NCBI GenBank assembly: GCA_023512255.1
Contig: JAILZY010000001.1
Coordinates: forward strand, 1 to 64,000
Direction: 5' to 3'
Length of the DNA stretch: 64,000 nucleotides
From: a bacterium
Lineage (GTDB): Bacteria > SZUA-182 > DTGQ01
The position numbers were made by a program, and so were the translations under genes. Of this stretch, positions 9,179 to 52,524 are shown piece after piece; positions within the stretch are counted from its first letter, which is position 1; the number at the start of each line of letters is the position of its first letter. The notes below the pieces were generated by a model. The model saw only the letters and a program-made list of their open reading frames with translations. It was not told the DNA's origin and did no database searches.

Positions 9179-10990
9179 ATGAAGAACATTCTCAAGTATT
9201 ACCTAATGATCGTTGGATTCCTGACTACACTTTTCATGGTGCTATTTGTTATTTTTCTATTCACTCTAATCAGCAATATCGGCAAAATGTCTGTCAGCTT
9301 AGGGGAGAGAGAAACTCTTCTGGCCGATCAGCCCTATTACCTGGAATTGAACCTAGTGGGGGAGATTCAGGATCAAGAGGTTTCAGAATTAGACCTTTTT
9401 ATTCAGCTCATTGAGGAGCGGCCTCGGTATCAGCTCTATGAGCTGATCATGACCCTAGATCAAGCCTCCCGCGATGGGCGGATAAAGGGGCTAGTGATCA
9501 AAAATCTGGATGTTAAAGCACCCTTGAGCTCTCTTTTTGAATTGAGCGAGGCCCTAGTTCGCTTCCGCACGCAGGGCAAGAAGGTCTATGTTTTCTTAAA
9601 CGAGGCTGACAACCAAAATTACCTCCTGGCTTCAGCCGCGGACAAGATCTTTCTCCAGAAAGAGGGCAGTCTCTTCCTGCCAGGAATCTCTGGCTCATTT
9701 ATCTATGTTAAAGATACCCTGGCCAAGATAGGCGTTGAGGCGGACTTTCTGCGGGCAGGAAGGTACAAGAGCGCTCCAGAAACGTTTACTGACAACAAGA
9801 TGTCTGAGGATAGCAGAAAGGTATACACGGAGCTTTTGACTGACATCCAGGATACATTCATCACTACTCTGGTCAAAAACAGAAATCTGAGCCGGGAAGA
9901 AGTAGCCGGCTGCCTGAACAAAGCCCTGTTCACGGCCAAAGAGGCTCTCCAGCGAAAACTGGTCGATGTTCTCTCCTACCAGGATGAATTTCTTGAAACT
10001 GTAGAAAAAAAGCTTTTTCCACGCATCGAGCCGCTTGAGTTCACCACCTATACAAAAGTTTCTCCCACCTCGATCAAAGGCCTCAAGGTCGACACTCACC
10101 GAAAGATAGCCATAATTGTGGCCAATGGTCTTATTCAGATGTCTGCCGAGGAAAACCAGATCAAAGAGCCCTCCATACTGCCCTCACAAATTATCAAAGG
10201 ACTGGAAGAGGTTGAGGAGGATCCAACGATCAAGGCCTTGATACTGCGGGTAAATAGTCAGGGAGGCTCAGCCCTGGCTTCAGACATTATCTGGAATAGG
10301 ATCAGGAAGCTGAACGCTAAAAAGCCTGTTTTCGTCTCTATGGGCCCTGTGGCCGCCTCAGGTGGCTACTACATTTCAATGGCTGCTGGTCAGCTTTACG
10401 CTGGCCGGACCACGCTCACCGGCTCGATCGGTGTTTTCGGCGGCAAGTTTGTAGTCAGCGATCTCCTTAACAAGATCGGAGCTCATACTGAAACCATCTC
10501 CTTCAGTGAAGGGGCATCTCTGTTTTCTCCTATCCAAAGCTTCACTCCAAATCAACGCCAAGAATTTGACCGCTTTCTCCAGCATACCTACCGAAGTTTT
10601 GTGGCCAAGGCAGCCTTAAGCCGCAACAAAAAGTACGAGGAGCTGAACGAGATCGCCCAGGGTCGGGTCTGGACCGGACAGCAGGCCCGGCAGGTTGGCC
10701 TGGTAGATGGGATCGGCGGCTATCATGAGGTCATTGAGGCGGTCAAGAAAAAGATTGGCCTTGAGAAGGGAACAATTCCAACCATTGTCCCGATAAGGAT
10801 TGAAGCAGAAAATCTGCTTGATATGCTACGCACGATCTTTCCTCTAATAGTAGAAAGACTTGGGCTTTCTTCCTCATCCCTTGAATCTTGCCTAAGCAGT
10901 AGAGAAGCTGGCGATCTAAAGAGGCTGAAGGGCCTAATTTCCCAAGAAAAATCTCTTTACCTGATGCCTATATTGGCAAAGATAGAATAG
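9179..10990 (+). CDS. sppA: Signal peptide peptidase SppA, long (67K) type
   Basis: 603 aa with tandem protease halves; VAASGGYYISMAAGQLYAGRTTLTGSIGVFGG. Confidence 0.9.
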   Translation: MKNILKYYLMIVGFLTTLFMVLFVIFLFTLISNIGKMSVSLGERETLLADQPYYLELNLVGEIQDQEVSELDLFIQLIEERPRYQLYELIMTLDQASRDGRIKGLVIKNLDVKAPLSSLFELSEALVRFRTQGKKVYVFLNEADNQNYLLASAADKIFLQKEGSLFLPGISGSFIYVKDTLAKIGVEADFLRAGRYKSAPETFTDNKMSEDSRKVYTELLTDIQDTFITTLVKNRNLSREEVAGCLNKALFTAKEALQRKLVDVLSYQDEFLETVEKKLFPRIEPLEFTTYTKVSPTSIKGLKVDTHRKIAIIVANGLIQMSAEENQIKEPSILPSQIIKGLEEVEEDPTIKALILRVNSQGGSALASDIIWNRIRKLNAKKPVFVSMGPVAASGGYYISMAAGQLYAGRTTLTGSIGVFGGKFVVSDLLNKIGAHTETISFSEGASLFSPIQSFTPNQRQEFDRFLQHTYRSFVAKAALSRNKKYEELNEIAQGRVWTGQQARQVGLVDGIGGYHEVIEAVKKKIGLEKGTIPTIVPIRIEAENLLDMLRTIFPLIVERLGLSSSSLESCLSSREAGDLKRLKGLISQEKSLYLMPILAKIE

Positions 10991-14347: not shown

Positions 14348-14884
14348 ATGAAGATCAACATTAAAGATATCACGGCTGAGATAACCGAGCTTATTTTCAC
14401 TGTTCCTGCTTCATATTTTACCTTTTCTCCTGATGAGGCTATCATCAGGAAAGATATCCAGGTCAAGGCGAAGGTTGAGAAGGTTGGCCGAGAAATTCTC
14501 ATCCGCGGAAGTGTCAAAACTCAACTTGAGCTGGAATGCAGTCGCTGCCTGACCCATTTTCTCTATTCAGTAGCGGAAAATTTTCAGACGATTTTCCAAC
14601 CATTTTCTCCTACTAGAGTATCAGAGGAGGAAGTCGAGCTGGCCAAAGAGGATCTGGATATCGAATTTTATAAGGATGATATAATTGATTTGACCAACAT
14701 AGTAAGAGATCAAATTCTGCTATCGATTCCAATGATCCCTATTTGCGAGACACAATGTCAAGGATTGTGTCCACACTGTGGGCAAAATCTTAATCAGGGG
14801 AAATGCAGCTGTTCTGCCGAAGCGATCGATCCAAGATGGCGCAAGCTCCAAGATTTTGCTAAGAAGAAAACCATCATGAATTAA
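14348..14884 (+). CDS. DUF177 (YceD-like) family protein
   Basis: C-terminal CETQCQGLCPHCGQNLNQGKCSC; immediately precedes rpmF. Confidence 0.85.
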   Translation: MKINIKDITAEITELIFTVPASYFTFSPDEAIIRKDIQVKAKVEKVGREILIRGSVKTQLELECSRCLTHFLYSVAENFQTIFQPFSPTRVSEEEVELAKEDLDIEFYKDDIIDLTNIVRDQILLSIPMIPICETQCQGLCPHCGQNLNQGKCSCSAEAIDPRWRKLQDFAKKKTIMN

Positions 14885-14904
14885 CATAATTAACCTAAGG
14901 AGGA

Positions 14905-15096
14905 ATGAATATGGCCCTGCCAAAAAGGAAAATCTCGAAGGCGAGGCGAGACAAGAGACGTACCCATTTTAAGCTATTTTCACCGACCTATACAAGCTGT
15001 CCGCAATGTCAGGAGGCGAAACTTCCCCATGCTGTATGCTTGAGTTGTGGCTATTACAAAGGGCAGAAAATCTTCGAAATAAAAGAAAAGATATAG
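14905..15096 (+). CDS. rpmF: 50S ribosomal protein L32
   Basis: MALPKRKISKARRDKRRTHFKLFSPTYTSCPQCQEAKLPHAVCLSCGYYKG. Confidence 0.95.
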   Translation: MNMALPKRKISKARRDKRRTHFKLFSPTYTSCPQCQEAKLPHAVCLSCGYYKGQKIFEIKEKI

Positions 15097-35873: not shown

Positions 35874-36662
35874 TCATCTCAATAAGTACCAGTAGGCACA
35901 GCCGATCGCACCTACAAACTGGCTGTGAGGTAGCACCACTACTTGCCTGGGCTTGCAGTTTTCTCGAATGATCTGCTGAATAGCTGCATTGCGGGAAACC
36001 CCACCAGAGAGGAGGATCACCTGGCCTGAAAACTGACTCAGCATAGGAGCAAGACGGCGAAAAACCGAAAAATTCACTCCAGCACACAAAGATGACAAAG
36101 AAGCTCCTTCTACCAGCTTTCCAATCAACTCTGACTCGCCGAAAATAGCGCAGGTTGAGTCAAGCTCAACCGGATTTTCGGCATAGCGCCCCAGCTCTTC
36201 CAGACTAACTCCTAATACCCTGGCCATATTTTCCAAATATCGCCCGCTGCTAGCCGCACACTTATCATTCATAACAAAATCAGATACTTTCCCCTGCTCA
36301 ACCAGAGCTACTTTTGAGTCCTGGCCGCCGATATCAACCAGGATAAAGTCTGATAAGCCACTCAGATAGCAGGCCCCTAAGGCATGGGCCATGATTTCTG
36401 GAATTTGGTAGGAGTTCTCAAAGCAGAGCGAATTTCGGCCATAACCAGTGGTTACTACTGGATAGCCCAAGTTTTTAGCCGGACCGATGCTCTCATCCTC
36501 AATTCGCAGCCCTCCTCCTGGTTCAATCTGGCGACAGCGGCGATAAAAGGCTATGGTCTCATAACTTTCCATCTGCCTGATTTCTCTCCCCTCTCCCATG
36601 AGCACAATCTTTACCTCTCGACTGCCAAGGTCCATTCCCCAGACCGCTTTGCTCCTACTCAT
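35874..36662 (-). CDS. 2-hydroxyacyl-CoA dehydratase activator (BadF/BadG/BcrA/BcrD family ASKHA ATPase)
   Basis: GMDLGSREVKIV; DIGGQDSKVALVEQGKVSDFVMNDKCAASSGRYLENMA. Confidence 0.9.
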   Translation of the reverse strand: MSRSKAVWGMDLGSREVKIVLMGEGREIRQMESYETIAFYRRCRQIEPGGGLRIEDESIGPAKNLGYPVVTTGYGRNSLCFENSYQIPEIMAHALGACYLSGLSDFILVDIGGQDSKVALVEQGKVSDFVMNDKCAASSGRYLENMARVLGVSLEELGRYAENPVELDSTCAIFGESELIGKLVEGASLSSLCAGVNFSVFRRLAPMLSQFSGQVILLSGGVSRNAAIQQIIRENCKPRQVVVLPHSQFVGAIGCAYWYLLR

Positions 36663-36687: not shown

Positions 36688-37779
36688 TTATCTTTTAGCA
36701 TCCGCGCTCCTTTCTTTTAGCACCTGGAGGAAGCTCTCGATCCTGATCCTGGTTCGGGCATCAATCTGGCCTGGGTTATCACCCTCCAGGGTGAGAATCG
36801 GCAAATGGATGGATTTTCGGACAATAAGGTCCTCAAGCCGATGAAAGCAGAAGGACTGAACATAGTGAATCAGACCATCTATCCGACGCACCGCTATCTG
36901 TTCCTTAATGTCGACAATCCGGGCAAAGATATCATATGGGTAGGTATAGCGCAGATACTGCTCAACCAGGTCCTCTCCCTGGCCGCAGCCGGGCATACTG
37001 AACTGTCGCTGGACCTCGTTAAAGACTACACGCCCCTCAAGTGACTCGATCAGAGGGTAAAGGTCGGTGAAAATCGGAGGCACACCAATAAACCCAAGCC
37101 TGACTTTCTCCTGCATCCGGCTTCTGGTGGAAAGCTCGGCCAGAAATTGATCAACCTTGGCCTCAAATTTTTCTGGATCTGCCTGCATATCACTACAGCT
37201 CACCTGGTAGTAATGGTTTTCAAACCCACTCACTACACCACCATCAGCCCAGCTCAGCCGATCAATCTGGTGCACCTTGCGGCGAATAGTATCGAGCCTT
37301 TCTTTCATGGCCATCGCTTCTTCCCACGAGCAGCCAAGAGCTTGCCTGAGACGCTCCATTTGAAGCCTCAAAAGCTCCCTGTCCCGGTCGTAGGGATAGG
37401 CAAAGGGGACGATCCTTATACCCTCAAGGCTGAGCATTTCGATTAAGGCCTGGGTGTTGCTACAATCTCCTTGAGTTACAGCTACAATCTGAGAAATTTT
37501 CTCCCGCCGGGCAGCCGAGTAAATCCCCTTAATCCAGGCGCAAAGAGTGCGGGGAAACCCCTGTATCTCAGCCTCATGGACAAGGTGCAGCGAATTATTA
37601 TGACTTATGAAAAGATTGTTCAGATCAAGCGGGACAAAGCCTGCGGCCAGAATAATTTCTAGCGGCACCGTGGTGGTGATACCGATTTTCGGCCTGTTAC
37701 TGCCCCCCTCTGCCGCCATAGCCAGCACTTTGGTTGCCTTATCTTCTGTGGTTGCCTTATCTTCTGATATATTTGACAT
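36688..37779 (-). CDS. 2-hydroxyacyl-CoA dehydratase (HgdB/FldC-like) family protein
   Basis: TTVPLEIILAAGFVPLDLNNLF; VQSFCFHRLEDLIVRKSIHLPILTLEGDNPGQIDARTRIRIESFLQ. Confidence 0.85.
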   Translation of the reverse strand: MSNISEDKATTEDKATKVLAMAAEGGSNRPKIGITTTVPLEIILAAGFVPLDLNNLFISHNNSLHLVHEAEIQGFPRTLCAWIKGIYSAARREKISQIVAVTQGDCSNTQALIEMLSLEGIRIVPFAYPYDRDRELLRLQMERLRQALGCSWEEAMAMKERLDTIRRKVHQIDRLSWADGGVVSGFENHYYQVSCSDMQADPEKFEAKVDQFLAELSTRSRMQEKVRLGFIGVPPIFTDLYPLIESLEGRVVFNEVQRQFSMPGCGQGEDLVEQYLRYTYPYDIFARIVDIKEQIAVRRIDGLIHYVQSFCFHRLEDLIVRKSIHLPILTLEGDNPGQIDARTRIRIESFLQVLKERSADAKR

Positions 37780-38358: not shown

Positions 38359-38919
38359 CTATGATAGAGAAACAACAACTGCACGGAGAAATATACGATA
38401 GATAAGAAAAAAAATTCTACCAAAGCAAAGACTTACCTTCGATCCTACCCGGCCACAAAAGAGAGGATATCGACTAATCACCTGGTACAGCAGGCCGCAA
38501 ATTCCTGATATGGCAGCAATAAAAATCCCGGCCACTCGCCAGGAGGTTTGAGAAAGGTTTATCAATCTGTTTTCTTTTTGAATAGCTACCACCTTACCCA
38601 GGATTTGATCAGAACCTACGGCCTGATCAAAGCTCCTATTTCCATCTCCCTTGGTGAGAAAAAATGATTCTCCATTTCTTTTCCTGACAAATACTACCCG
38701 GTGAGCTACGGCATTAGAACAATGCGGGTAGGTAATCACCACAATGTCGCCAATAAAGATCCGCTTAGGCTCAACTTGGGGAGATACCATGACCTTGGCC
38801 CCAGGATAAAGCATGGGAGACATACTATAGCCACAGATCGAAAAATAGAAATTTCGATCCGCTGGTATGAATCCAGCCTTGATAATCTGAATCGCTTCCT
38901 CTTGAAGCAGATGGGCCAT
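38359..38919 (-). CDS. S26-family signal peptidase
   Basis: GYSMSPMLYPGAKVMV (Ser), DIVVITYPHCSNAVAHRVVFVR, FFLTKGDGN; His at the AHRVV position as in S26B-type enzymes. Confidence 0.8.
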   Translation of the reverse strand: MAHLLQEEAIQIIKAGFIPADRNFYFSICGYSMSPMLYPGAKVMVSPQVEPKRIFIGDIVVITYPHCSNAVAHRVVFVRKRNGESFFLTKGDGNRSFDQAVGSDQILGKVVAIQKENRLINLSQTSWRVAGIFIAAISGICGLLYQVISRYPLFCGRVGSKVSLCFGRIFFLIYRIFLRAVVVSLS

Positions 38920-39358: not shown

Positions 39359-41056
39359 CTACATCCAATACCAGCAGCAGGGATATAGGTACCATAAGGG
39401 GAAATAGTAGTATCCTGGATATTGAATAGTCGACAGCCAAAGCAGATATTGAGGGCATCCCGAAAATTCAAACTCAAGGGGAAGTTCAGACTCAAGGGAT
39501 AAGTATTCACTTTGCACCTTGCTCGGAGCGTCTAACTCGGTTGTAACATCTAAAAAGATAGGGCCATGGAAAGTACTAATACCAGTACTATCAACCTCTT
39601 CCAGTTGATAGTAATATCTAGTCGCAGGAGATACCATATTATCAAGGTAAGAATACTCAGCAGCTAACGACGATCCTCCTTCAGCCCCTATGGGAACAGG
39701 ATTAATTTTGACATATTCTCCGCCATCTTCCTGAGCACGCCAGAGATTAAACCCTGCCGTATTGATTTCACTCAAGGTGGTCCAGGTGATAACTACAGCA
39801 CTTCCCTGCAGCGCGGCTGAGAATTGATCCAAGGTGATCAAGGTAGGCTCTGGCTTATATTCATAGGCTCCCATGTCCCATTCGGCCTCACCATCCCCAT
39901 CTCCCTCCTGGGGTCTTATGATACCATCCTTGTCATTGCCTGGCGCTCCCATATGGGTACCAGCATCAATACATGGAGAGCCAACCCGAAGATGAAAATC
40001 CCCTGAGCCAGGATCAACAAACAGGGGATCAGCATTAATATTACCCGTACCAAAATAGCCATCTTTGATATCACAGTAGGTGACCTCACTGTCTTGGGCT
40101 ACACTGATCTCCACATTTAGATCACTATTATTTCCATAAATAATGCAGTTGGTTACCTTTATAGAATCATTTTTCTCATTATTGCAAAAAATTCCACCGG
40201 CGTAGATTTTGCCTGGTTGGGTTGAATTTCCCGAAAGCGTACAATTGATAACTTGCGGAGGTTGCGCCTTTACATTCTGAGAAGCATAGATTCCCCCGCC
40301 ATTCCAGGAAGCTGTATTTCCAATAATAAGGCAATTAACTATCATTGGCCTGCAGGCTGAAAGGCTAGCAATTCCTCCGCCACACATAGCCTGATTTTCT
40401 GCAATAGTACATCGCTCGATCTTTGGTGAAGAATTATTGAAGCAATAGATTCCTCCTCCATACCCATCGGAAGCCCTATTTCCTGTGATCGTGCATTTTG
40501 TAATTGTTGGGGAACTGTTCTTGAAACAGTAAATTCCTCCACCGCCACTTGTAGCCTCGGTTACATTTTGCGTGATAATACAATTGGCGATCCTCGGCGA
40601 AGAATTATTGGTACACATGATTCCCCCGGCACCATTTTTACTGCGGCCGCCGGTCAAGGTAAACCCTTCAAGGGCAGGACCTGTTCCTCCACCATAAAAA
40701 GTAACTACTGAACTTACACCTCCTCCATTGATTATGGTCTTCTTAACTACCTGTGGATCATCCGGATTAGTACTTTTTACAGTAATGGCCTTAGCAGGAT
40801 GGCCAAAATTGATATTTTCCTGATATGTTCCCTCAGCGACAATAATTTCATCTCCAGGACTAGCCGCCTCAATAGCTGCCTGAATAGTAGAATAATCATC
40901 AGGTACCTTGATTACTCCTGCAATTGCTCCAGATACATGAAATGAAATTATGGCTGCTACAGCTACCAATCCTAAAACCCGGTTGAAAATAAGTTTCAGA
41001 AAACCTTTCATTTCTTTCTTCCTCCTTTGGCCATCGGTTAAGTTTAGCATTTCCAT
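39359..41056 (-). CDS. Secreted right-handed parallel beta-helix protein
   Basis: IKVPDDYSTIQAAIEAASPGDEIIVAEGTYQENINF; repeated NCIITQN/KCTITGNRAS-type rungs. Confidence 0.8.
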   Translation of the reverse strand: MEMLNLTDGQRRKKEMKGFLKLIFNRVLGLVAVAAIISFHVSGAIAGVIKVPDDYSTIQAAIEAASPGDEIIVAEGTYQENINFGHPAKAITVKSTNPDDPQVVKKTIINGGGVSSVVTFYGGGTGPALEGFTLTGGRSKNGAGGIMCTNNSSPRIANCIITQNVTEATSGGGGIYCFKNSSPTITKCTITGNRASDGYGGGIYCFNNSSPKIERCTIAENQAMCGGGIASLSACRPMIVNCLIIGNTASWNGGGIYASQNVKAQPPQVINCTLSGNSTQPGKIYAGGIFCNNEKNDSIKVTNCIIYGNNSDLNVEISVAQDSEVTYCDIKDGYFGTGNINADPLFVDPGSGDFHLRVGSPCIDAGTHMGAPGNDKDGIIRPQEGDGDGEAEWDMGAYEYKPEPTLITLDQFSAALQGSAVVITWTTLSEINTAGFNLWRAQEDGGEYVKINPVPIGAEGGSSLAAEYSYLDNMVSPATRYYYQLEEVDSTGISTFHGPIFLDVTTELDAPSKVQSEYLSLESELPLEFEFSGCPQYLLWLSTIQYPGYYYFPLWYLYPCCWYWM

Positions 41057-41156: not shown

Positions 41157-41474
41157 TTACTTTTCTATCATGCCCTGGATCTCAAAATCATGAATTATAC
41201 CTTGAATATCCCGCTCAATCGAGATTGCCCCCCTCTCTCTCTCCTCTACGGAAAGAGAATACAGGTCAGCAATAGCAGCCACCATATCGCCAATAGAATG
41301 CTGACCATCACAGAGTTGCCAAACCAAGAGAGCGGCTTTATTGAGAATATGCACCTGCCTTGTCTCTGGATTGTACAAAATGGCTTCTCCATCAAGATCT
41401 CGAGCCATAATCGCCCCCTTACGGCAGGGTGCCTTTCTCTCTACCTCATAACTTCCCTTGTCTTGTCTAATCAT
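41157..41474 (-). CDS. PqqD-family protein (RiPP recognition element)
   Basis: DLDGEAILYNPETRQVHILNKAALLVWQLCDGQHSIGDMVAAI. Confidence 0.85.
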   Translation of the reverse strand: MIRQDKGSYEVERKAPCRKGAIMARDLDGEAILYNPETRQVHILNKAALLVWQLCDGQHSIGDMVAAIADLYSLSVEERERGAISIERDIQGIIHDFEIQGMIEK

Positions 41475-41666: not shown

Positions 41667-42953
41667 TTAATTTTTACAGGTAATTTTTACAGGCCCCCGA
41701 TCCTCATTCACCAGATCAAATATTAAATCAGCCATCTTCTCAAGCCTGCCCGGAATAATGCGATAGCAATCTACTCCCTTGATGATCTGGCCAAGCTCAA
41801 GCAACATTGAAGCCACACCACTATTAGCCTCCCTCAATACAGGGGATCTCCAACCACCCCGAAAGCTTCTGACAAGCTCTCTGATAGCCGTCGATTTTGA
41901 AATTCTCTCAAGACAAGGGTTTTGAGAGTAATCAACCGCCGCCTGCCCATCTCGAGCAATATTAACTAATGCTACCCGATATTTTTGGCAAAGCTCTTCT
42001 ATTGCTGGCAAAAGAAAGTGTCCCCGCCTTCCAATAAGCCTAAAAGTGGGAAAAGGAGTTTCAGCATATAGGCTACATTTTTCTACTCCAGGGAGAGCTC
42101 GAATCTCATTTATCATTCTCTCTTCAAACTGGTCTACGCTGAAGTAGAAAAATTTTTTATCCTCTGTCGACAAATCCTCTAGCCTACTTCCTTCCTCATC
42201 CACAAAGCTTTCCTGTCTAGGAGAAGACCCTGCCGGCTGATAGGACAAACAGAGCAAAAATCTTAACCGGCAGGGTTTGGCTATTTTAGCCTCAGGGATA
42301 TCCACAAGATTCAGCCATATCTTTCTTCCACCCAAAATTTCACCCCCCGAGTTAGTATCAACCTGGTGAAAAAAATCTTTAAATAATTCCACCGCACTCC
42401 GACGCAAGCTAAGAGCCCTATGGACGGAAGATATGCACCTGTCCTGACGATTAATGCAAGTCATGTCATCGGTTAAAAAGTGAAATCCCCGCCTGACCAG
42501 CTCTAAAGTTAAGGTACTTTTCCCTTGGCCTGAGACACCCAGGATCATGATTCCCTGATCCTGCCAAGATAGAGCAGCCGCATGGAAGATAAGATGTGAT
42601 TGGATGCTGGCAACTATAGAATTGGTAATAATCGAATAAGCATAGCTTGGCAAAAGGTGAGTAACTGGACAGGGATAGATCCTCTCTTTTGTCCAGATGA
42701 AAGGCTTTTCCCAAATCTTTGGCTCGTCAATTACATAATATGATGCTCCATCCTGTGCTTCCAAGCCCTGAGGATCATCATTTTTTTCTTCAAAAGCTCG
42801 TAAATAAAAATCAGGATCGGGATACATCTTCTGAAAGTAGATCAATACCTCAGGCCGATTCGTGCCCACAGTAAAAATCGTATCGAGAAATCGGAAGGTA
42901 TGCTTGAACCGAGCCGTAGTGGCTACTGATGTTGGATCAACGAAGTCAACCAC
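41667..42953 (-). CDS. HPr kinase-like (HprK-related) P-loop protein
   Basis: LIFHAAALSWQDQGIMILGVSGQGKSTLTLELVRRGFHFLTDDMTCI. Confidence 0.8.
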   Translation of the reverse strand: MVDFVDPTSVATTARFKHTFRFLDTIFTVGTNRPEVLIYFQKMYPDPDFYLRAFEEKNDDPQGLEAQDGASYYVIDEPKIWEKPFIWTKERIYPCPVTHLLPSYAYSIITNSIVASIQSHLIFHAAALSWQDQGIMILGVSGQGKSTLTLELVRRGFHFLTDDMTCINRQDRCISSVHRALSLRRSAVELFKDFFHQVDTNSGGEILGGRKIWLNLVDIPEAKIAKPCRLRFLLCLSYQPAGSSPRQESFVDEEGSRLEDLSTEDKKFFYFSVDQFEERMINEIRALPGVEKCSLYAETPFPTFRLIGRRGHFLLPAIEELCQKYRVALVNIARDGQAAVDYSQNPCLERISKSTAIRELVRSFRGGWRSPVLREANSGVASMLLELGQIIKGVDCYRIIPGRLEKMADLIFDLVNEDRGPVKITCKN

Positions 42954-44343
42954 TTATAGCCACCTCACTTTTCTCTCCTGATATGCCAGAAAAGGAGAAA
43001 GACTTTTTAGCTGCCAAGCTAAAAATCATTTGCGGATAAAGCTTTTTCCTCACTGCACACAGATCATCAACCGCCTGAAAGGTACCTCTCAAAAGATATA
43101 CATTCCCAGGACACCCTCCCTGACAGAAATTTTTCCACACACACTCTTGACACTCAGGAATAGTGATTTTGCGAGCAAGAAAAATTTCCCACATTCTCTC
43201 CATGAGCGGTGACTCAAGGGCTTGGGGCAAAGACATCTCCTTGATATTGCCAATCCTAAATGGCGGCTCCATAAGCAGCGAACAGGGATATATATCTCCA
43301 CGGTGATCAATAATCAGTATTTGCCCTATCTGACACCATAAAGCCTGATCAGGAGGATGCTGAAGCACAAATCCCTGAAAACCAGGACTGATACGCAATT
43401 TGGGAAATTCCTCAGCAGCCTGCTGACACATATAGCTGTAAAATTCAGCATACTCTTGACTGGATGGGGCCAGCTCATCCCAGGATGAGCTGGCCATACC
43501 CATATTCTGCAAGGGAATAAATCGTATCTTAAACACCCCTATCTCACTGGCTAACTTAAGCAGAGCCCGAACATCTTTAAGATTATTTCTGCTGACAGTA
43601 ACACAAAAGCTGATCCTCTCCTGCATTCCTAACTTAACCAGAAGCTCAACCGCTCTCATGGCCCTGGAAAAAGCACCATCTCCCCGCATATAATCATGAA
43701 TACTCTCCCTGGAGCCATCCAGACTAATCTGGATCATTAGCCCCAGATCAGCCAGAAATCGAGCCACTCTCTCAGTAATAAGAGTTGCATTCGTCGCCAA
43801 ACTGGTTTTAACCCTCCTAGCCGCATAGGCGAGAATCTCAAGACAATCCTCCCGAAGAAGTGGCTCCCCTCCTGTTATACTTAGTGATCCAGCCCCTGCC
43901 TCTTCAACCCGGTCAATGATTCTAAATATCTCCTCGGTAGTAAAATTGCTATCTCTCCTTAAGCCATCAGTTATAGCGCAATGCCGACAGTGCAGATTAC
44001 AATTTTCAGTAATGTATACATCTACCTTTTTCAAAGTAAACTTTCTAACGCAGGACTCTTCTACTGACTGGGCTGGATTTGCAGCCAGGAAGCCATACTT
44101 TAGAAGTTGATCAATAAAAGCCTGGATATCTGAAACCACTCTTTGAAAAGACAGGCCATATCCCTGACTCACAATCTGAGCAATTTGCCCTACACTATGA
44201 TGGCTATCACAGAGAGAATGAGTTTTATATCCAACCTCATTGATTACCATCCAGGCGGGTTTGTCCTTATGCAATAAAAGATATCGCCCTCCATTGTCAT
44301 CACTAATACTGATTGCTCTACTTACTGGCTTAAGATCAAGCAC
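42946..44343 (-). CDS. Radical SAM/SPASM protein with N-terminal PqqD-like domain
   Basis: ITENCNLHCRHCAI (CxxxCxxC); SITGGEPLLRED; C-terminal Cys-rich SPASM CQECVWKNFCQGGCPGNVYL; N-terminal PAWMVINEVGYKTHSLCDSHHSVGQIAQ. Confidence 0.9.
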   Translation of the reverse strand: MLDLKPVSRAISISDDNGGRYLLLHKDKPAWMVINEVGYKTHSLCDSHHSVGQIAQIVSQGYGLSFQRVVSDIQAFIDQLLKYGFLAANPAQSVEESCVRKFTLKKVDVYITENCNLHCRHCAITDGLRRDSNFTTEEIFRIIDRVEEAGAGSLSITGGEPLLREDCLEILAYAARRVKTSLATNATLITERVARFLADLGLMIQISLDGSRESIHDYMRGDGAFSRAMRAVELLVKLGMQERISFCVTVSRNNLKDVRALLKLASEIGVFKIRFIPLQNMGMASSSWDELAPSSQEYAEFYSYMCQQAAEEFPKLRISPGFQGFVLQHPPDQALWCQIGQILIIDHRGDIYPCSLLMEPPFRIGNIKEMSLPQALESPLMERMWEIFLARKITIPECQECVWKNFCQGGCPGNVYLLRGTFQAVDDLCAVRKKLYPQMIFSLAAKKSFSFSGISGEKSEVAISG

Positions 44344-44801: not shown

Positions 44802-44975
44802 CTACCCAGAACAGGACATCACAGCCCCCTGAAAACCACTGCAGGCCTGAATCGCCATGCCCTCCATCTCTTCAATCAGCTCCTCCTCAGAGTAGCTAAT
44901 CATACGCGGTGGTTCATACCCAGATAAAGGTTGATTTTGAATATCACTCTGTTTTCTTTGTTCTTCGGCTTTCAT
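44802..44975 (-). CDS. Putative RiPP precursor peptide, 57 aa (not in supplied ORF track)
   Basis: Codon-by-codon reading: MKAEEQRKQSDIQNQPLSGYEPPRMISYSEEELIEEMEGMAIQACSGFQGAVMSCSG*; AAGGAGGA SD 6 nt from ATG; directly upstream of the rSAM/SPASM operon. Confidence 0.8.
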   Translation of the reverse strand: MKAEEQRKQSDIQNQPLSGYEPPRMISYSEEELIEEMEGMAIQACSGFQGAVMSCSG

Positions 44976-45065
44976 AAATTTGTCCTCCTTTCGCCTTATT
45001 CAACTTATTCTTAAAAACGCTACGTGGTAAATCTTGGACCATATTTTATGACTATGTTTTAAATA

Positions 45066-45567: not shown

Positions 45568-48500
45568 TTACCGGCCTTCTTTGCTCCATGGGCCAGGACT
45601 CCAATTACGCCGAGCCTTGGCTATCCCAATACCATACCCACAGCCAGGCTCAATCTGATACCTCTCTCCGGCAGTCAGGCTAAAAAAAGAATAACTTTCC
45701 TGCCACTTCCCGCTTCTTTTCCCATAAGTTGCCACACTAAAGACAGAATCTGCCCCAAGTTCACGATGAAGATCATAAGAGGTATAATCCTCCAAAGGAG
45801 CAGGAAAACCTAATAGGTTGTAGCCTGCATCCAGGATATAGGAGGAATAAAAGGGAATGATGCAGGAGGAGACAAAGGATAGCGTCCGCTCAATGTCCCC
45901 ATCAGCATAGAGAACATAGCCCTGGCCGGGAACGATATCAAAATCTATCCCCTTGAGAGCCCCACCCGACCACACTCCCGTCTGCCACTTTTTATCAATC
46001 GAATCGTACTCCGAAATTTTCCTGACCCCAATTCCTTGACTCCTCAGCTTGACCAGCAAATCCTCTGCTCCTAGGGGAGGAAGTACACGGCCAGGCAAAC
46101 TAAAAAAATTAATTCCCGGCTTAATTATGATTCGAGCCTCTGCCGAGGCTTCATACTCTCCTTTCAGTCTTGTGGCCGGATCACCAAAGAGAAGGTAATT
46201 TTGAGCCATATCACCTGAAATTTGATGCCGTACATAGGTATTTATCCGAGCCAAAGTCGTACATACCCCAAGGATGTTATTCCCCTGCCTAAGTATCTGA
46301 TTGAGCAATTCTCTAGTTAAATTTTTTTGCTCGGTCGGATAACTAACACTAACCGGAGCCCAGCAGGCCAAAGCCCCCTTGTTTTCAGCCCGCAGCAGCT
46401 CTTCAGCCAGACAGCAATCCTGTTTGGGATGCGGGAAAAAGCCATTTAAACAGGTCAGCAAAATGATAAAACTTGGCCGACCGATATTTTCAAGCCTCTG
46501 CACATCGCTCAACTGAAAGAGCGTCGATTCCCATTTATCAACATTGCCATGACCACAGTAGACAGTAATCAGATGCCCATCGGAGAGCTGCCTTCTTATC
46601 TGCTCAGCCGCTAAGTCAACGTTCGGATAGCTGGCTGCATAGACCTTTTGGACCTCAAAATTTACCGGCCCAAAATCACGCGCCAGCTCATCAGTAATGG
46701 TTTGAAATTGTGGATCATCCTTGCCAGCCACCAAAAGAGCTCGCCGGTGCCAGGGCTGATTATTCTGCTGCTCATAGGAAATAATTTTTTCAACCATTGA
46801 CCGAACCTCAGATGGATTCCTAGCCGGCATACGGCCAAGAAACATATCCGGCAAGATATCCTCTCCACTAACGCAGACAAACCAATTGTCATTAGGGGTT
46901 TCGCCAATATCAGCGGTAAAATATAGATGAGTGGGAAGATAATTTGCTCTGCCAATCTTATAATTATCAAGATAATCCATATTTGCATCACCAACCAGTA
47001 AAACAAATAGAGGTGCCGGAGGAGCCCAGTTCTGAAAACAATACCTCAAAAAATCCTGAATAGCCTGGGGATCAGCAATCCCATAGGAAAACTCATCATA
47101 AATGTCATAAATATCTACTACCCTTACCCGCCACCCCTGAGCCTTTCGATAATCAGCCAGGGGCAAGATACTATCCCAAAAGTTTGGATGAGTTATTATC
47201 AAATAGTCCGCAGCATTATCAGTCGATCGCAAATCAACCTCTCTGTCCGACCTAACGAGGGCACCTGACTCAATAGACAGTGGCGACTGCTCAGCCGAAA
47301 TCCCCAAGACAGCATACCGCTTGCGGCCACTAACCGCGGCCGAAAACCTCACTCCATAGACCGAAGCTGCCTCAGCCTCAATCGAAATATTCCCTATTTT
47401 CATAATCCGCTCAGGATCAGTAATGTCAAAGACAGATATTTCCCTATCCGAAAATCCCCGAACATGAAACTCATACCTTCCCTCCCCTTGAATCGGAAAC
47501 AGCAACTTATGATTTTGAGCTACAAACATCCTTGGATAATCCAATTCAATCCAATTCACCAGCACCGTATCAATTGAGGCTCCAGTATCACCCACAGCTT
47601 TGATAGCCAGAGTATTATTTCCCTCCTGCAAAAGGGTGCTTGAAACCTGGATCTGACCAAGATACTCGCTCTGCCCATCCCAGGAAAAATCGCCTATTAC
47701 CGACCCGTTCAGGGTAATAATCAGATGGTGATCCGGTTTTGTAGTTGCAATATCCGTCTTCCCCTGGAAAAGAATTCTGACCGTAGCTGTTTTTTTGCCA
47801 GAAGAAAGGCTGTAAATAGAAAAGGAAAAATCTGCCGCTGAAGGCGCTGTCATCTGCCTCCAAAACCAGCGATCTTTATCCATGCCGCCAGGCAGCGTCT
47901 GCCAGTAAATGTTATTTTCTTCCAAGTGAAGATGGTCTATAAAATAATTCACCCCTTCACCTGAATAAGCCCCTCCCTTCTCCTGTTCCCCGATTCTCAT
48001 CCCCTCTCCTGTCTCCTTTTGCTCCAGCCAATAAATGTTTTTTTTGGTAAATCGGGAATTGATAGCCGTACCCCAAAAAATTATCCTATCCCCTGCGCTC
48101 AAATAACCATCCTCAGCACCAACGATGCTTATTGGTATCTCTCGCCCCTGATGATACATAGCAAGCTTGCGAGGAACTATCAAGTTAAGATCCCAGCCCG
48201 CGGCCTTAAGATCTGCCCCCAATATCCGATAGAGCCCCTCCTGCTCAATAGCAATTTTTAAGGGATGAAGCCCAACGGAGCCAGAAAGCCTCATCCTGCG
48301 CCTTGCTCTTGATTCCAAAGAGATCGATTCCAAAGAGGGAGATGGTGAAAGAGTGAATAGCTCTGGATGTTCCTTGACCAGCGAATAATTGATCAGAACA
48401 TTTTCCAAAAGCCTCTCAACTTCATGAATATTCTGATTTTCACTCATCTTCCCAGTCGAAAAAGTTGCTGGCAGACCCTTTGATGAACCAAAGGATAAGC

Positions 48501-49254
48501 CTGCTTCCCCCCTGCGGCCATTCTCCCCCACACCACTAAGCTTCAGCCTAAGGGAAGCCTCCCTAAAAATAACCTTAATCTTCACCCGACGCCAAAGCCG
48601 CACCTTTCGTAAGGCCGGATTATATTGCGCCGGAAAGATGGTTAGCCGAGCTACCTTCTGATGCCGAAGATATTCAGCAGGATCTATCCTGAAAGGGTGC
48701 TCTGGAATCCATTGATCTTGAGAATAACAAGCCCGATCAAGGGTAAATTCTTCGGCTATAGAAATATTTTCATTCTCAGCCACCACAATCCTCCTTGGAG
48801 CAGGATAGATAAGCAGAGAAGGGTCTAAAACCTCAACCTCCTGTTCCAAAACCACAAGCTCGGCCTCAGCCAGTAGGGGAATAGCTATCAAAAAGCCTAG
48901 AAGCGGCAGCCGCGGCTTTCCCTCATCCTGAGTCAGACCTGCCTCAGCCATACTCAAGACCTGATATACAATCCCGCCTTCCTCTCTATTTTCAATTCGA
49001 AGCTGCGGAGAGGAAAATTCTACAACTATCCCCCCTGCCCCTGACTCAAGGACCTTGAGCCCACTTGTAGCCTGCTGAGAATCCTGTAATTTAGGGAAAG
49101 CCTCCTCTTGAGCCCATAGAAGTCCATCCGCCGCACAGACCTTAAAATCTCTGCTATATACCGCATAAGTATGAAAAAATAAAAAAAGACCACAAATCAT
49201 TATGTAACATATTATTTCTTTTACATATCTCATGTCGATTTTACACCGATGCAT
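45568..49254 (-). CDS. Gingipain-like peptidase C25 family secreted protein
   Basis: DYLIITHPNFWDSILPLADYRKAQGWRVRVVDI; ITVYCGHGNVDKWES; FIILLTCLNGFF; C-terminal repeated PGINFFSLPG.../AGYNLLGFPAP modules. Confidence 0.85.
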   Translation of the reverse strand: MHRCKIDMRYVKEIICYIMICGLFLFFHTYAVYSRDFKVCAADGLLWAQEEAFPKLQDSQQATSGLKVLESGAGGIVVEFSSPQLRIENREEGGIVYQVLSMAEAGLTQDEGKPRLPLLGFLIAIPLLAEAELVVLEQEVEVLDPSLLIYPAPRRIVVAENENISIAEEFTLDRACYSQDQWIPEHPFRIDPAEYLRHQKVARLTIFPAQYNPALRKVRLWRRVKIKVIFREASLRLKLSGVGENGRRGEAGLSFGSSKGLPATFSTGKMSENQNIHEVERLLENVLINYSLVKEHPELFTLSPSPSLESISLESRARRRMRLSGSVGLHPLKIAIEQEGLYRILGADLKAAGWDLNLIVPRKLAMYHQGREIPISIVGAEDGYLSAGDRIIFWGTAINSRFTKKNIYWLEQKETGEGMRIGEQEKGGAYSGEGVNYFIDHLHLEENNIYWQTLPGGMDKDRWFWRQMTAPSAADFSFSIYSLSSGKKTATVRILFQGKTDIATTKPDHHLIITLNGSVIGDFSWDGQSEYLGQIQVSSTLLQEGNNTLAIKAVGDTGASIDTVLVNWIELDYPRMFVAQNHKLLFPIQGEGRYEFHVRGFSDREISVFDITDPERIMKIGNISIEAEAASVYGVRFSAAVSGRKRYAVLGISAEQSPLSIESGALVRSDREVDLRSTDNAADYLIITHPNFWDSILPLADYRKAQGWRVRVVDIYDIYDEFSYGIADPQAIQDFLRYCFQNWAPPAPLFVLLVGDANMDYLDNYKIGRANYLPTHLYFTADIGETPNDNWFVCVSGEDILPDMFLGRMPARNPSEVRSMVEKIISYEQQNNQPWHRRALLVAGKDDPQFQTITDELARDFGPVNFEVQKVYAASYPNVDLAAEQIRRQLSDGHLITVYCGHGNVDKWESTLFQLSDVQRLENIGRPSFIILLTCLNGFFPHPKQDCCLAEELLRAENKGALACWAPVSVSYPTEQKNLTRELLNQILRQGNNILGVCTTLARINTYVRHQISGDMAQNYLLFGDPATRLKGEYEASAEARIIIKPGINFFSLPGRVLPPLGAEDLLVKLRSQGIGVRKISEYDSIDKKWQTGVWSGGALKGIDFDIVPGQGYVLYADGDIERTLSFVSSCIIPFYSSYILDAGYNLLGFPAPLEDYTSYDLHRELGADSVFSVATYGKRSGKWQESYSFFSLTAGERYQIEPGCGYGIGIAKARRNWSPGPWSKEGR

Positions 49255-49566: not shown

Positions 49567-52524
49567 TTATGGCCAGAAGGTAGAACCAACACCAGCCAGC
49601 GGAACTAGAACTGTCGGCTCATCAGGATCATTGGAGAAGATGGCCATATCATATAAGAACGTGCCTTCAGCCTCTGGGCTAAAACGAAGGGTGATGATAA
49701 TCGACGCCCCTGGAGCCAGATTGTAAGGAGGCAGAGCTCCCTCGATAGAGAATGGAGCCTCAAGATCAATATAGTCTATTCTCAGATTGGCATTTCCCTT
49801 ATTCTGGATAGTCAACTCCTGCTCGTAATAATCACCAACTGCAACTTCTCCAAAGTTAATCAAACCTCCCGCTAGATCAATATCAGATACCAGCATACTC
49901 CAGCCGTAAACGGAAATATTGGTTATTCCACCATCACTTCTCACCGTCAGGGTGGCATAGTCTGATCCATCATTCACAGGCGTATATCGAACCATAATCT
50001 TGGCATATTCGCCAGCAGGAATAGTTAAACCACCATAGGGCAGCTTGGTAACCAGCTTATATTCACTACTGCCACTTATAGTAACCGAGCTGACCTTCAA
50101 GGGAATATTTCCCTTATTATACAGATACACAGGCTGATCCTTGCTCTTTCCTTTCAACACACAGTAAAAATCAAGATAATCAGGCTCAACACTGAGTTGA
50201 GGATAGGAAAATTCCGAGGCCATCAGCTCAAGCGAATAGTTGTTCTTGAGTGCAGGGGTGTTATAACTAAACTGGCTGGCATTTTTGCTATCCCAGCACT
50301 GGGCACCTACAGTGGCTGATCGTCCAAAATCATAGCCCGGAGGATCATAAGCACCAAAGACTACATCCTTGTACCGATATTCAATTTCAGGCCTATCCTC
50401 GTGGAAGACCATCTGGAAGGTGATTCCATCAGTGCCAGGGAAAGGATTATAATACCAATCAAGCAGATTATAGTGATGCAGATCATTCCACTGAATAATA
50501 AACTCTCGCTTCGGGAAAATACCCTGGACATCAACATAAACATCCTCTCTTGTGCCTAGCCAAGGCCGTGGGCAAAGGTCATCCCAGAATGGAACCATCA
50601 CATTCCCATAATACATATTCGGAAGCGGCCAGTTATCCCAATCTATCCAGGTATCAACACTCACCCCTCCATTATCAAAAACAAAGACATAAGGGAAGAA
50701 CCATCCATAAATAGTCAGGTCAAAGGGAGGTGAAATCATCCTAAAATCCTCATCATCTATATACAGCCTCATGGCTGTCGGTGAGGTGGTGATGTCATTG
50801 AAACTATGAGGAATCTCGCCAATCGTATACCGCGGTGGCAGGAGCCAAATACTAACATTGATCGTCTTACTTAAACTGCCGCTCTTGAAGACCAGGGCAA
50901 AATCACCTACCCTAGGAGGTATCCATCGGGCCGAGAAGACACCATCTTGAGCTACCTTATCGGGGAAGATACCATCATCCAATAAGTTAATAACGGTATT
51001 ATTGATGGTGCAGGTTACCGGACCTACCGGATTAGCGCCCAGAATATCATGCACTTCAAGATCAATCGGGCTGTAGAGTGCCCCAATCATCCCATCAGCC
51101 GGACTCAAAATAGCAAAAAGCCGTGCATCAGGCGGGGAAGTCAATGCTCTCTCAGCATCAATTCTCCGGCCAGTAACCGAAATACCATCCAAGGCGGGAA
51201 TAGGATCGCCTGTTGACAGGATGAGATTCCTGATCGCTTTCCAGCTTCTGCTCTGATCCTGAGCCTTGAGAAGAGCCGCCAGCCCAGTAACATGAGGCGC
51301 AGCCATTGAGGTCCCTGACCAGGTATCATAAGGCCAGGCATCGGTTGACCAACAATAGGGAAGCAGCGGCGAGCAGGTGCTCAGGATATCCACGCCTGGG
51401 GCCCCGACATCGACTGTCCTCTTCCCATAGTTGCTAAACCAGGCAAGCTCATCATTGCAATCTGTAGCCGCCACCGAAATGATATTCATAAGATCATAGC
51501 TTGCCGGATATCTATACAGCGAGTCATTATCTTCACCATCATTGCCTGCCGAGGCCACAAACAAAATGCCCTCGTTCTGGAGCGCTTTGATGGCATCATA
51601 CAAGGCTCTTGAATAGCCACCACCACCCCAGGAATTATTGGCGGCAATAATATTGACCCCAGCTCGCTTTTGGGCACAAATATACTGGAGACAGAAAATG
51701 GCATCATCCAACCAGCCCCAGCCATCCTTGTTCATAAACTTGGTGGCCATGATCGATACCTTCCAGTTGACCCCACTGATCCCTCGGGCATTATTGCCGC
51801 AGGCTCCAATAATTCCAGCCACATGGGTGCCATGTCCCATATCATCCATCGGATCACCAGCACAAGGGGCCCCCCCAATGTAGTAATCAACCATATTAAT
51901 TCCATGAATATCATCAACATAGCCGTTGTTATCATCGTCAAGACCATTGCCTGGTATCTCACCCTGATTCACCCACATATTCCCAGCCAAATCGCGATGC
52001 TTGTAATCAACACCCGTATCAACCACAGCCACAACCACCGAGCGAGAGCCTGTCTCGTGATCCCACGCCCCCGGCCCATTAATGTCTGAACCTGGCGTCC
52101 CGCCAGTCTGGCCGAAATTGTAAAGAGCCCACTGATCGAAAAAAGAGGGATCATTAGGCACGGCCAAGGCATAGAGCTTGTAATTGGGCTCCGCATACTC
52201 CACATCAGGGTTTGTGGCTAAGGTGCTTAAAGATTGGGTCATTCTGGCATCATCAACCTTGAGAACAAATAAGTCAGGAATAATAACCGAGCGCTGATCG
52301 CTGATTGATCTTGCACTATACAGTATCTGGGCTCCTATGCTTTTGGTGATCGTATTGATGCGAGTTTGGTTTGCACTCGGCTTAAACCTAACCAGAATCT
52401 CGCCTTCTTTATATTCATGTCCCTGAAAGAACGGCTTCTTTGAATAGGCTAAGCTCGTCATCAGGGAAATCGTTAAGGTAGCTACCAATACGCCTAACAA
52501 ACCTTGAGCCATGAGTTTTCTCAT
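49567..52524 (-). CDS. Subtilisin-like serine protease (S8) with C-terminal HYDIN/ASPM-like abnormal-spindle repeats
   Basis: VVAVVDTGVDYKHRDLAGN, GHGTHVAGIIGACGNN, SGTSMAAPHVTGLAALL; C-terminal INFGEVAVGDYYEQELTIQNKGNANL. Confidence 0.9.
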   Translation of the reverse strand: MRKLMAQGLLGVLVATLTISLMTSLAYSKKPFFQGHEYKEGEILVRFKPSANQTRINTITKSIGAQILYSARSISDQRSVIIPDLFVLKVDDARMTQSLSTLATNPDVEYAEPNYKLYALAVPNDPSFFDQWALYNFGQTGGTPGSDINGPGAWDHETGSRSVVVAVVDTGVDYKHRDLAGNMWVNQGEIPGNGLDDDNNGYVDDIHGINMVDYYIGGAPCAGDPMDDMGHGTHVAGIIGACGNNARGISGVNWKVSIMATKFMNKDGWGWLDDAIFCLQYICAQKRAGVNIIAANNSWGGGGYSRALYDAIKALQNEGILFVASAGNDGEDNDSLYRYPASYDLMNIISVAATDCNDELAWFSNYGKRTVDVGAPGVDILSTCSPLLPYCWSTDAWPYDTWSGTSMAAPHVTGLAALLKAQDQSRSWKAIRNLILSTGDPIPALDGISVTGRRIDAERALTSPPDARLFAILSPADGMIGALYSPIDLEVHDILGANPVGPVTCTINNTVINLLDDGIFPDKVAQDGVFSARWIPPRVGDFALVFKSGSLSKTINVSIWLLPPRYTIGEIPHSFNDITTSPTAMRLYIDDEDFRMISPPFDLTIYGWFFPYVFVFDNGGVSVDTWIDWDNWPLPNMYYGNVMVPFWDDLCPRPWLGTREDVYVDVQGIFPKREFIIQWNDLHHYNLLDWYYNPFPGTDGITFQMVFHEDRPEIEYRYKDVVFGAYDPPGYDFGRSATVGAQCWDSKNASQFSYNTPALKNNYSLELMASEFSYPQLSVEPDYLDFYCVLKGKSKDQPVYLYNKGNIPLKVSSVTISGSSEYKLVTKLPYGGLTIPAGEYAKIMVRYTPVNDGSDYATLTVRSDGGITNISVYGWSMLVSDIDLAGGLINFGEVAVGDYYEQELTIQNKGNANLRIDYIDLEAPFSIEGALPPYNLAPGASIIITLRFSPEAEGTFLYDMAIFSNDPDEPTVLVPLAGVGSTFWP

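Follow-up and report, generated by a model that had tools for sequence, protein, structure and literature searches.

A putative 57-residue RiPP precursor with a radical SAM, HprK-like kinase and signal peptidase cassette, and its genomic pairing with secreted tail-domain proteins

The locus and its precursor gene

The window analyzed here is a 64,000-nucleotide stretch of bacterial DNA that carries, on its minus strand, a small Cys-containing open reading frame (ORF) together with genes for putative maturation enzymes and for secreted proteins. The features of the locus, in order of coordinate, are the following.

38359-38919, minus strand: archaeal-type signal peptidase I, candidate leader peptidase (TIGR02228 above cut-off)
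39359-41056, minus strand: secreted beta-helix partner with a C-terminal tail domain (PF13229, choice-of-anchor Q)
39557-39841, minus strand: undescribed C-terminal tail domain of this partner, about 95 residues (profile A5, E = 1.2e-37; the sequence is a seed row)
41157-41474, minus strand: discrete PqqD-family recognition element, or RRE (PF05402 above cut-off; LN and D positions kept)
41667-42953, minus strand: HprK-like kinase (PF07475 above cut-off; resembles HPr kinases in the PDB)
42946-44343, minus strand: radical SAM/SPASM maturase with an N-terminal fused PqqD/RRE domain (PF04055, PF13186 and PF05402 above cut-off)
44802-44975, minus strand: putative RiPP precursor of 57 residues, leader plus Cys-containing core (exact translation; homologues adjoin homologous radical SAM and HprK genes)
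44805-44849, minus strand: predicted core QACSGFQGAVMSCSG (Gln43 and Cys45 conserved; compare SxSCTGFGGSxxC in 27 paralogues of another phylum)
44901-44918, minus strand: leader recognition motif YEPPRM, of the form YxxPx[hydrophobic] (Tyr and Pro do not vary across the ten rows of alignment A4)
44983-44990, minus strand: Shine-Dalgarno sequence AAGGAGGA (read off the sequence; 7 nt 5' of the ATG)
45568-49254, minus strand: secreted C25 (gingipain/PorU-type) cysteine protease (PF01364, PF08126; GHG and TCLNGFF catalytic motifs intact)
49567-52524, minus strand: secreted subtilase, a neighbor that is probably not a core member (PF00082)

The first-pass annotation, which was made from sequence alone, had read a 57-residue minus-strand ORF at 44802-44975 with Cys at residues 45 and 55, and both claims held: the translation is exact and a stop codon is present. 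The Shine-Dalgarno sequence that it placed 6 nt before the ATG held only in part, in that AAGGAGGA is present at a spacing of 7 nt. The leader block that it pointed out, YEPP, is a known recognition-element motif. It had further interpreted the ORF as a RiPP precursor in front of a radical SAM/PqqD/HprK cassette, a reading that would be refuted if homologous radical SAM loci had no conserved small ORF. We found that the small ORF is conserved beside homologous radical SAM or HprK genes at ten loci of several lineages, and this conserved neighborhood supports the assignment. Its suggestion of radical SAM thioether formation at Cys is still plausible, with the thioether itself remaining an inference.

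An alternative is that this is a chance ORF without translation. In favor of this reading, the ORF is short, and neither NCBIfam nor Pfam holds a family for the 57-residue precursor or its homologues. Against it, both position and sequence are conserved across several lineages, and because of this conservation we consider the chance reading refuted, leaving it almost no room. In addition, mismatches between the G000 and G001 precursors number 16, 8, and 25 at codon positions 1, 2, and 3, a pattern that fits the expectation for coding sequence. The 57-residue ORF is a genuine gene. That it encodes a RiPP precursor, with a maturation path through the radical SAM protein, the kinase, and the signal peptidase, has strong support from its sequence, and all of the chemistry is inferred.

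G001, a genome of the same genus, has the cassette twice, and in both copies a precursor lies immediately upstream of the radical SAM gene; one of these precursors is 64% identical to that of the window, as is the radical SAM protein encoded downstream of it (also 64%). More precursors, detected by pattern or profile, were found in G003 (two loci), G008, G050, G060, G151, and L029 (a record titled as a Proteobacteria MAG, LacPavin isolate), and these adjoin the radical SAM or HprK gene or have only a partner gene intervening. Ten precursor homologues from several lineages, the window's included, have the pattern Y-x-x-P...Q-x-C...C. In their alignment, Tyr20, Pro23, and Cys45 are invariant, Ile26, Tyr28, and Gln43 are nearly so, and the leader consensus reads YEPPxxITYSEDELLEExGPAQAC. 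All ten also have a second core Cys, though it is not fixed to one alignment column, and the residue that follows the first Cys is not always Ser or Thr (ACN, ACA, and SCA in some members).

The maturation cassette and its distribution

The predicted maturase retains the residues expected of its family, with the CX3CX2C and SPASM Cys invariant in eight homologues. Among its best matches in the PDB is 5wgg ("Radical SAM domain protein"), which we take to be CteB and which aligns over almost the full length, RRE included; SkfB (6efn) is also among the nearest sequences. Given that both are known thioether formers, a thioether from the conserved Cys is the most likely product. The P-loop, H124, and D162 of the HprK-like kinase are likewise invariant in eight homologues, and its predicted structure, made from a two-row alignment, was too poor for structure search (pLDDT 38). 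The Asn and Asp contact positions are retained in most discrete and fused recognition domains, and the Ser-His-Asp positions are conserved in most members of the signal peptidase family; both sets of positions were mapped by motif place and not by alignment with LppB.

Upstream of the precursor and on the same strand lie the C25 protease and the subtilase. The C25 protease adjoins the radical SAM/HprK genes in nine loci and in most copies its His and Cys motifs are intact, while the subtilase was found beside a cassette elsewhere only at G001:C34. The first-pass annotation had missed the signal peptidase (38359-38919), the C25 protease (45568-49254), and the beta-helix partner (39359-41056). 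An NTP_transf_5 nucleotidyltransferase adjoins the cassette in three relatives, G001:C4, G003, and L029 (loci L018, L020, and L029). Among the genes of the window operon, we saw no NTP_transf_5 and recognized no transporter, dedicated exporter, or immunity gene. We found no paper in the open-licence literature searched that combines HprK with a radical SAM/SPASM protein, or a radical SAM protein with C25, and no family model for the combination; to this extent the enzyme set is undescribed.

Two peculiarities were observed at L029, where the catalytic Ser of the signal peptidase (14499-15068) is replaced by Cys (GRCMIP), and where a second, shorter radical SAM protein (9427-10332), not observed in the other cassettes examined, is encoded between the radical SAM and HprK genes. 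Elsewhere in the window, an HGD-D (2-hydroxyglutaryl-CoA dehydratase D-component) family protein at 36688-37779 stands beside a probable BcrAD-type ATPase activator at 35874-36662; this pair is unrelated.

We assessed distribution over 386 diverse genomes with thresholds of E <= 1e-85 for the radical SAM profile and E <= 1e-3 for the precursor profile. Each profile matched 11 of the 386 genomes, ten of them in common (Fisher p = 7e-18, or 2e-6 without the genomes that supplied seed rows). G004 has a cassette without a detectable precursor, and G007 has a precursor without a radical SAM protein at the threshold used. The system is thus rare within this sample but distributed over several phyla, three of which are represented by only four genomes each. 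A scan of genome contigs with a single radical SAM sequence gave no match; the same scan with the radical SAM alignment relied on one generic radical SAM motif and yielded at least one true member (L029). The loci of G003, G008, G060, G065, and G151 are truncated at contig ends, so that a missing C25 protease or signal peptidase at those loci is uninformative.

The G007 precursor homologue (L175, 6546-6713) comes from a genome where neither a cassette nor a tail-domain protein was detectable, and short ORFs near it resemble pieces of a decayed partner.

It is also conceivable that the radical SAM protein is not the precursor's enzyme, and that only the RRE, the kinase, and the signal peptidase act on the precursor. 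This reading could appeal to G003, in which the precursor on contig C240 abuts HprK and one radical SAM gene lies on a different contig from both. It is opposed by the near-perfect co-occurrence of radical SAM protein and precursor over the 386 genomes and by the fact that the two are neighbors in most loci, and we regard it as very improbable.

Pairing of precursors with secreted tail-domain proteins

In most cases only tens of bases separate a precursor gene from one that encodes a secreted protein, often a beta-helix protein, with the shared tail domain; the first-pass annotation had also missed this tie between peptide and secreted proteins. Wherever a precursor shares a contig stretch with a tail-domain gene (35 cases), the two are on the same strand. 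The four genomes of the G042 phylum contain 27 dispersed precursors and a single cassette per genome (with PqqD, radical SAM, HprK, C25, and signal peptidase members); a pattern search for a precursor beside the cassette found none in this phylum, and the dispersed copies were found by profile. The nearest tail-domain gene shares the strand of the precursor in all 27 cases and is no more than 150 bp away in 21 of them (median distance, 42 bp), with the precursor upstream of it in some cases and downstream in others. Because a crude null places only 0.12% of sites per genome this close, the association is far beyond chance; the adjacency counts are nonetheless non-independent, since precursor and partner are duplicated as pairs. 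Precursors also lie within about 130 bp of a tail-domain gene in the G001:C4, G003:C240, G050, and G151 cassettes; for the window, G001:C34, and G060, precursor and tail-domain gene belong to the same gene run. No tail-domain gene was found in the stretch available at L021, L029, or L175.

The core of the 27 dispersed precursors is almost fixed as LGPSLSCTGFGGSxxC, occurring as LGPSLSCTGFGG in 17, LGPSISCTGFGG in 4, and IGPSVSCTGFGG in 3. Each of the other 3 precursors has a variant of its own, and two of these variants lack the first Cys.

These two, at L169 5622-5735 (VSHTVFGG) and L168 1283-1402 (LSYTGFGG), are perhaps decaying copies.

The window's beta-helix partner has an orthologue at the equivalent place in G001:C34. 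Its tail domain has no match in Pfam or the PDB and no meaningful one in NCBIfam. A fibronectin-III-like assignment, made by reading, was supported by no library searched, and we have therefore left the fold unnamed; a single-sequence structure prediction of the partner (pLDDT 48) was too poor for structure search. All 12 of the cassette genomes in the search gave strong tail-domain matches (E below 1e-17), whereas the four relatives that lack the cassette (G002, G005, G006, and G007) gave none, their best score being 9.5e-8. Since the profile was seeded from carriers, this contrast is partly biased. G050, which contributed no row to the profile, nevertheless encodes about 24 strong tail-domain proteins, and it has one precursor. 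Across genomes, the partners are mainly beta-helix or repeat proteins without a recognized oxidoreductase domain. The window's genome abounds in beta-helix proteins more generally (31 PF13229 matches), and at 252-5057 the window encodes a protein of 1601 residues for which the matches are HYR, thrombospondin type 3, and beta-helix.

With few exceptions, only about 10-65 residues follow the tail domain in the proteins examined, and these ends are clade-specific; the exceptions, with more sequence after the domain, include G008, G151, and L192. Arg or Lys is the last residue in 26 of 34 tail proteins of the G042 phylum but in only 12 of 72 ORFs taken for comparison (p = 3e-9). G050 and G060 have Lys-rich ends, and those of G000 and G001 are rich in aromatic residues (37% aromatic in the last 25 residues versus 9%). 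One tail-domain partner contains a C25 propeptide domain by Pfam, and BLAST found a similar stretch in others. Taken together, the gene pairing gives good support to the view that the product works together with the secreted tail-domain proteins, and the fate of the peptide is inferred.

Proposed maturation, possible roles, and known systems

Conservation, domain content, catalytic motifs, and genomic pairing are observed directly. From them we propose a five-step explanation, which we consider likely as a whole, with the chemistry and the fate of the product inferred in the absence of biochemical data. Its steps run from the most to the least secure. First, the PqqD-type elements, both discrete and fused to the radical SAM protein, would bind the leader at YxxPx[IVM]. 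Second, the radical SAM/SPASM protein would alter the Cys core, most likely by forming a thioether from Cys45 and/or Cys55. Third, the archaeal-type signal peptidase would cleave off the leader, in the way that LppS acts on the linear polyphosphorylated peptides (LPPs) of Bacillota. Fourth, the HprK-like kinase would phosphorylate a core Ser or Thr, probably beside the first Cys, as LppK does on Ser3 of its core. Fifth, the finished peptide would not be a diversified antibiotic but would pair with the secreted tail-domain proteins, serving as their cofactor, attachment group, or small partner, and the secreted C25 protease would act on the peptide or on the tail.

A more conventional alternative is that the peptide is an antimicrobial or signaling RiPP, a bacteriocin resembling sactipeptides or ranthipeptides, and that its secreted neighbors are incidental. 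The Cys core and a radical SAM maturase built like known thioether-forming enzymes speak for this possibility. It is contradicted by a core that is almost fixed in 27 paralogues, by the close pairing with tail-domain genes, and by an operon without a recognized immunity gene or dedicated exporter, and we think it unlikely. The fixed core together with the pairing with surface proteins argues against an antibiotic, and the link to secreted tail-domain proteins makes the role of an ordinary secreted antibiotic less likely; we infer that a structural, cofactor, or anchoring role is the likelier one.

Among such roles, the peptide could be a redox or catalytic cofactor, or a small subunit, of its partner, like PQQ or the gamma subunit of quinohemoprotein amine dehydrogenase. 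QHNDH brings together partner subunits, a leader protease of its own, and thioether formation by a radical SAM enzyme (cf. PMC7876137). A fixed, maturase-dependent core paired with a secreted partner is consistent with this hypothesis, but the partners, mainly beta-helix or repeat proteins, have no recognized oxidoreductase domain, and we doubt that it is correct.

A sharper version of the fifth step is possible, in which the C25 protease, behaving like a PorU sortase, joins the tail-domain proteins to the modified peptide as their acceptor or anchor, following a T9SS-like logic without the T9SS translocon. In its favor, C25 adjoins the maturase in nine loci, the partners share one near-C-terminal domain, after which there is usually only a short end that differs by clade, one partner contains the C25 propeptide domain, and SprA is missing in 11 of 12 carriers. 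Gingipains cut at Arg or Lys, and the basic ends of the G042-phylum partners (26 of 34) and the Lys-rich ends in G050 and G060 also count toward it. Against it, nothing beyond gene pairing links peptide and tail directly, G050 has one precursor for about 24 tail proteins, the partner ends in G000 and G001 are aromatic and not basic, and the C25 score is under the cut-off of the PorU model. Bolder still, and again no more than possible, is a RiPP-based sorting system independent of the T9SS translocon, wherein the modified peptide would be the acceptor, anchor, or obligate small partner of a whole class of surface proteins with a common near-C-terminal domain, with C25 doing the joining or processing.

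Under the five-step explanation, which we prefer, uncultured lineages would have an undescribed RiPP family in which radical SAM chemistry joins a phosphorylating kit so far known from Bacillota. The system also links a RiPP, via an undescribed C-terminal domain, with a large number of secreted proteins, and it provides a testable lead on the role of non-antibiotic RiPPs with HprK-like kinases.

Several known systems overlap with this one in part. T9SS PorU is alike in having a C25 protease with a propeptide and a secreted protein set with a common near-C-terminal domain, but the tail domain is not a T9SS domain by library search, and here a RiPP-type cassette is linked. We rejected T9SS membership, as SprA (PF14349) was found in only 1 of 12 carriers and not in the window's genome, and assignment as a PorU sortase, as NF033707 reached 255.3 of the required 420 bits. 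The SynChlorMet (Scm) and HPr-rel-A cassettes also combine PqqD with an HprK-like protein, and Scm has a radical SAM protein as well. Scores for ScmC, ScmD, ScmE, and ScmF (11.4, 36.6, 122.2, and 102.7 bits against cut-offs of 125, 100, 400, and 400) were all far too low, and those for TIGR04352 and TIGR04353 (57.4 and 19.4 bits against 200 and 35) were also below cut-off, so that we rejected membership in either system. Phosphorylated lasso peptides of the paeninodin type share the HprK-like kinase, NTP_transf_5, discrete RRE, and [Y/W]xxP leader; a lasso peptide was rejected for the window cassette, which has no macrolactam cyclase or B2 peptidase among its annotated operon genes.

The CteB/SCIFF ranthipeptide and SkfB sactipeptide systems resemble ours in their fused N-terminal RRE, radical SAM and SPASM domains, and Cys core. 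They differ in that no NCBIfam radical SAM maturase model reaches its cut-off here and the precursor matches no NCBIfam precursor model, and such systems are not known to include a kinase, signal peptidase, or C25 protease.

The LPPs were described in Bacillota by Popov et al. 2026 (PMC13381572). In that work, a discrete RRE binds a YxxP leader, a type of motif bound by discrete RREs in both LPP and lasso systems; an HprK-like kinase phosphorylates one core Ser, close to the core N terminus, several times over; and an archaeal-type signal peptidase (Ser-His-Asp), helped by the recognition element, removes the leader. According to the authors, neither LPPs nor paeninodins have a known biological role, and the word "radical" does not occur in their main text. 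Our system is similar in its YxxP leader, discrete PqqD-type RRE, HprK-like kinase, and archaeal-type signal peptidase, and in the NTP_transf_5 of some relatives. In contrast, the described LPP clusters have neither a radical SAM protein nor a C25 protease. LPP clusters include an NTP transferase and an MsbA-like transporter; here NTP_transf_5 was seen at L018, L020, and L029 but not in the window operon, and no transporter was recognized. The LPP leader consensus YxxPxVLxHQxIxFETxxS does not fit, with only YxxPx[hydrophobic] in common. LPPs are reported in Bacillota only; among the carriers here, the one record with a name, L029, is titled Proteobacteria. Finally, LPP cores are highly variable, while the core described here is conserved and paired with tail-domain proteins.
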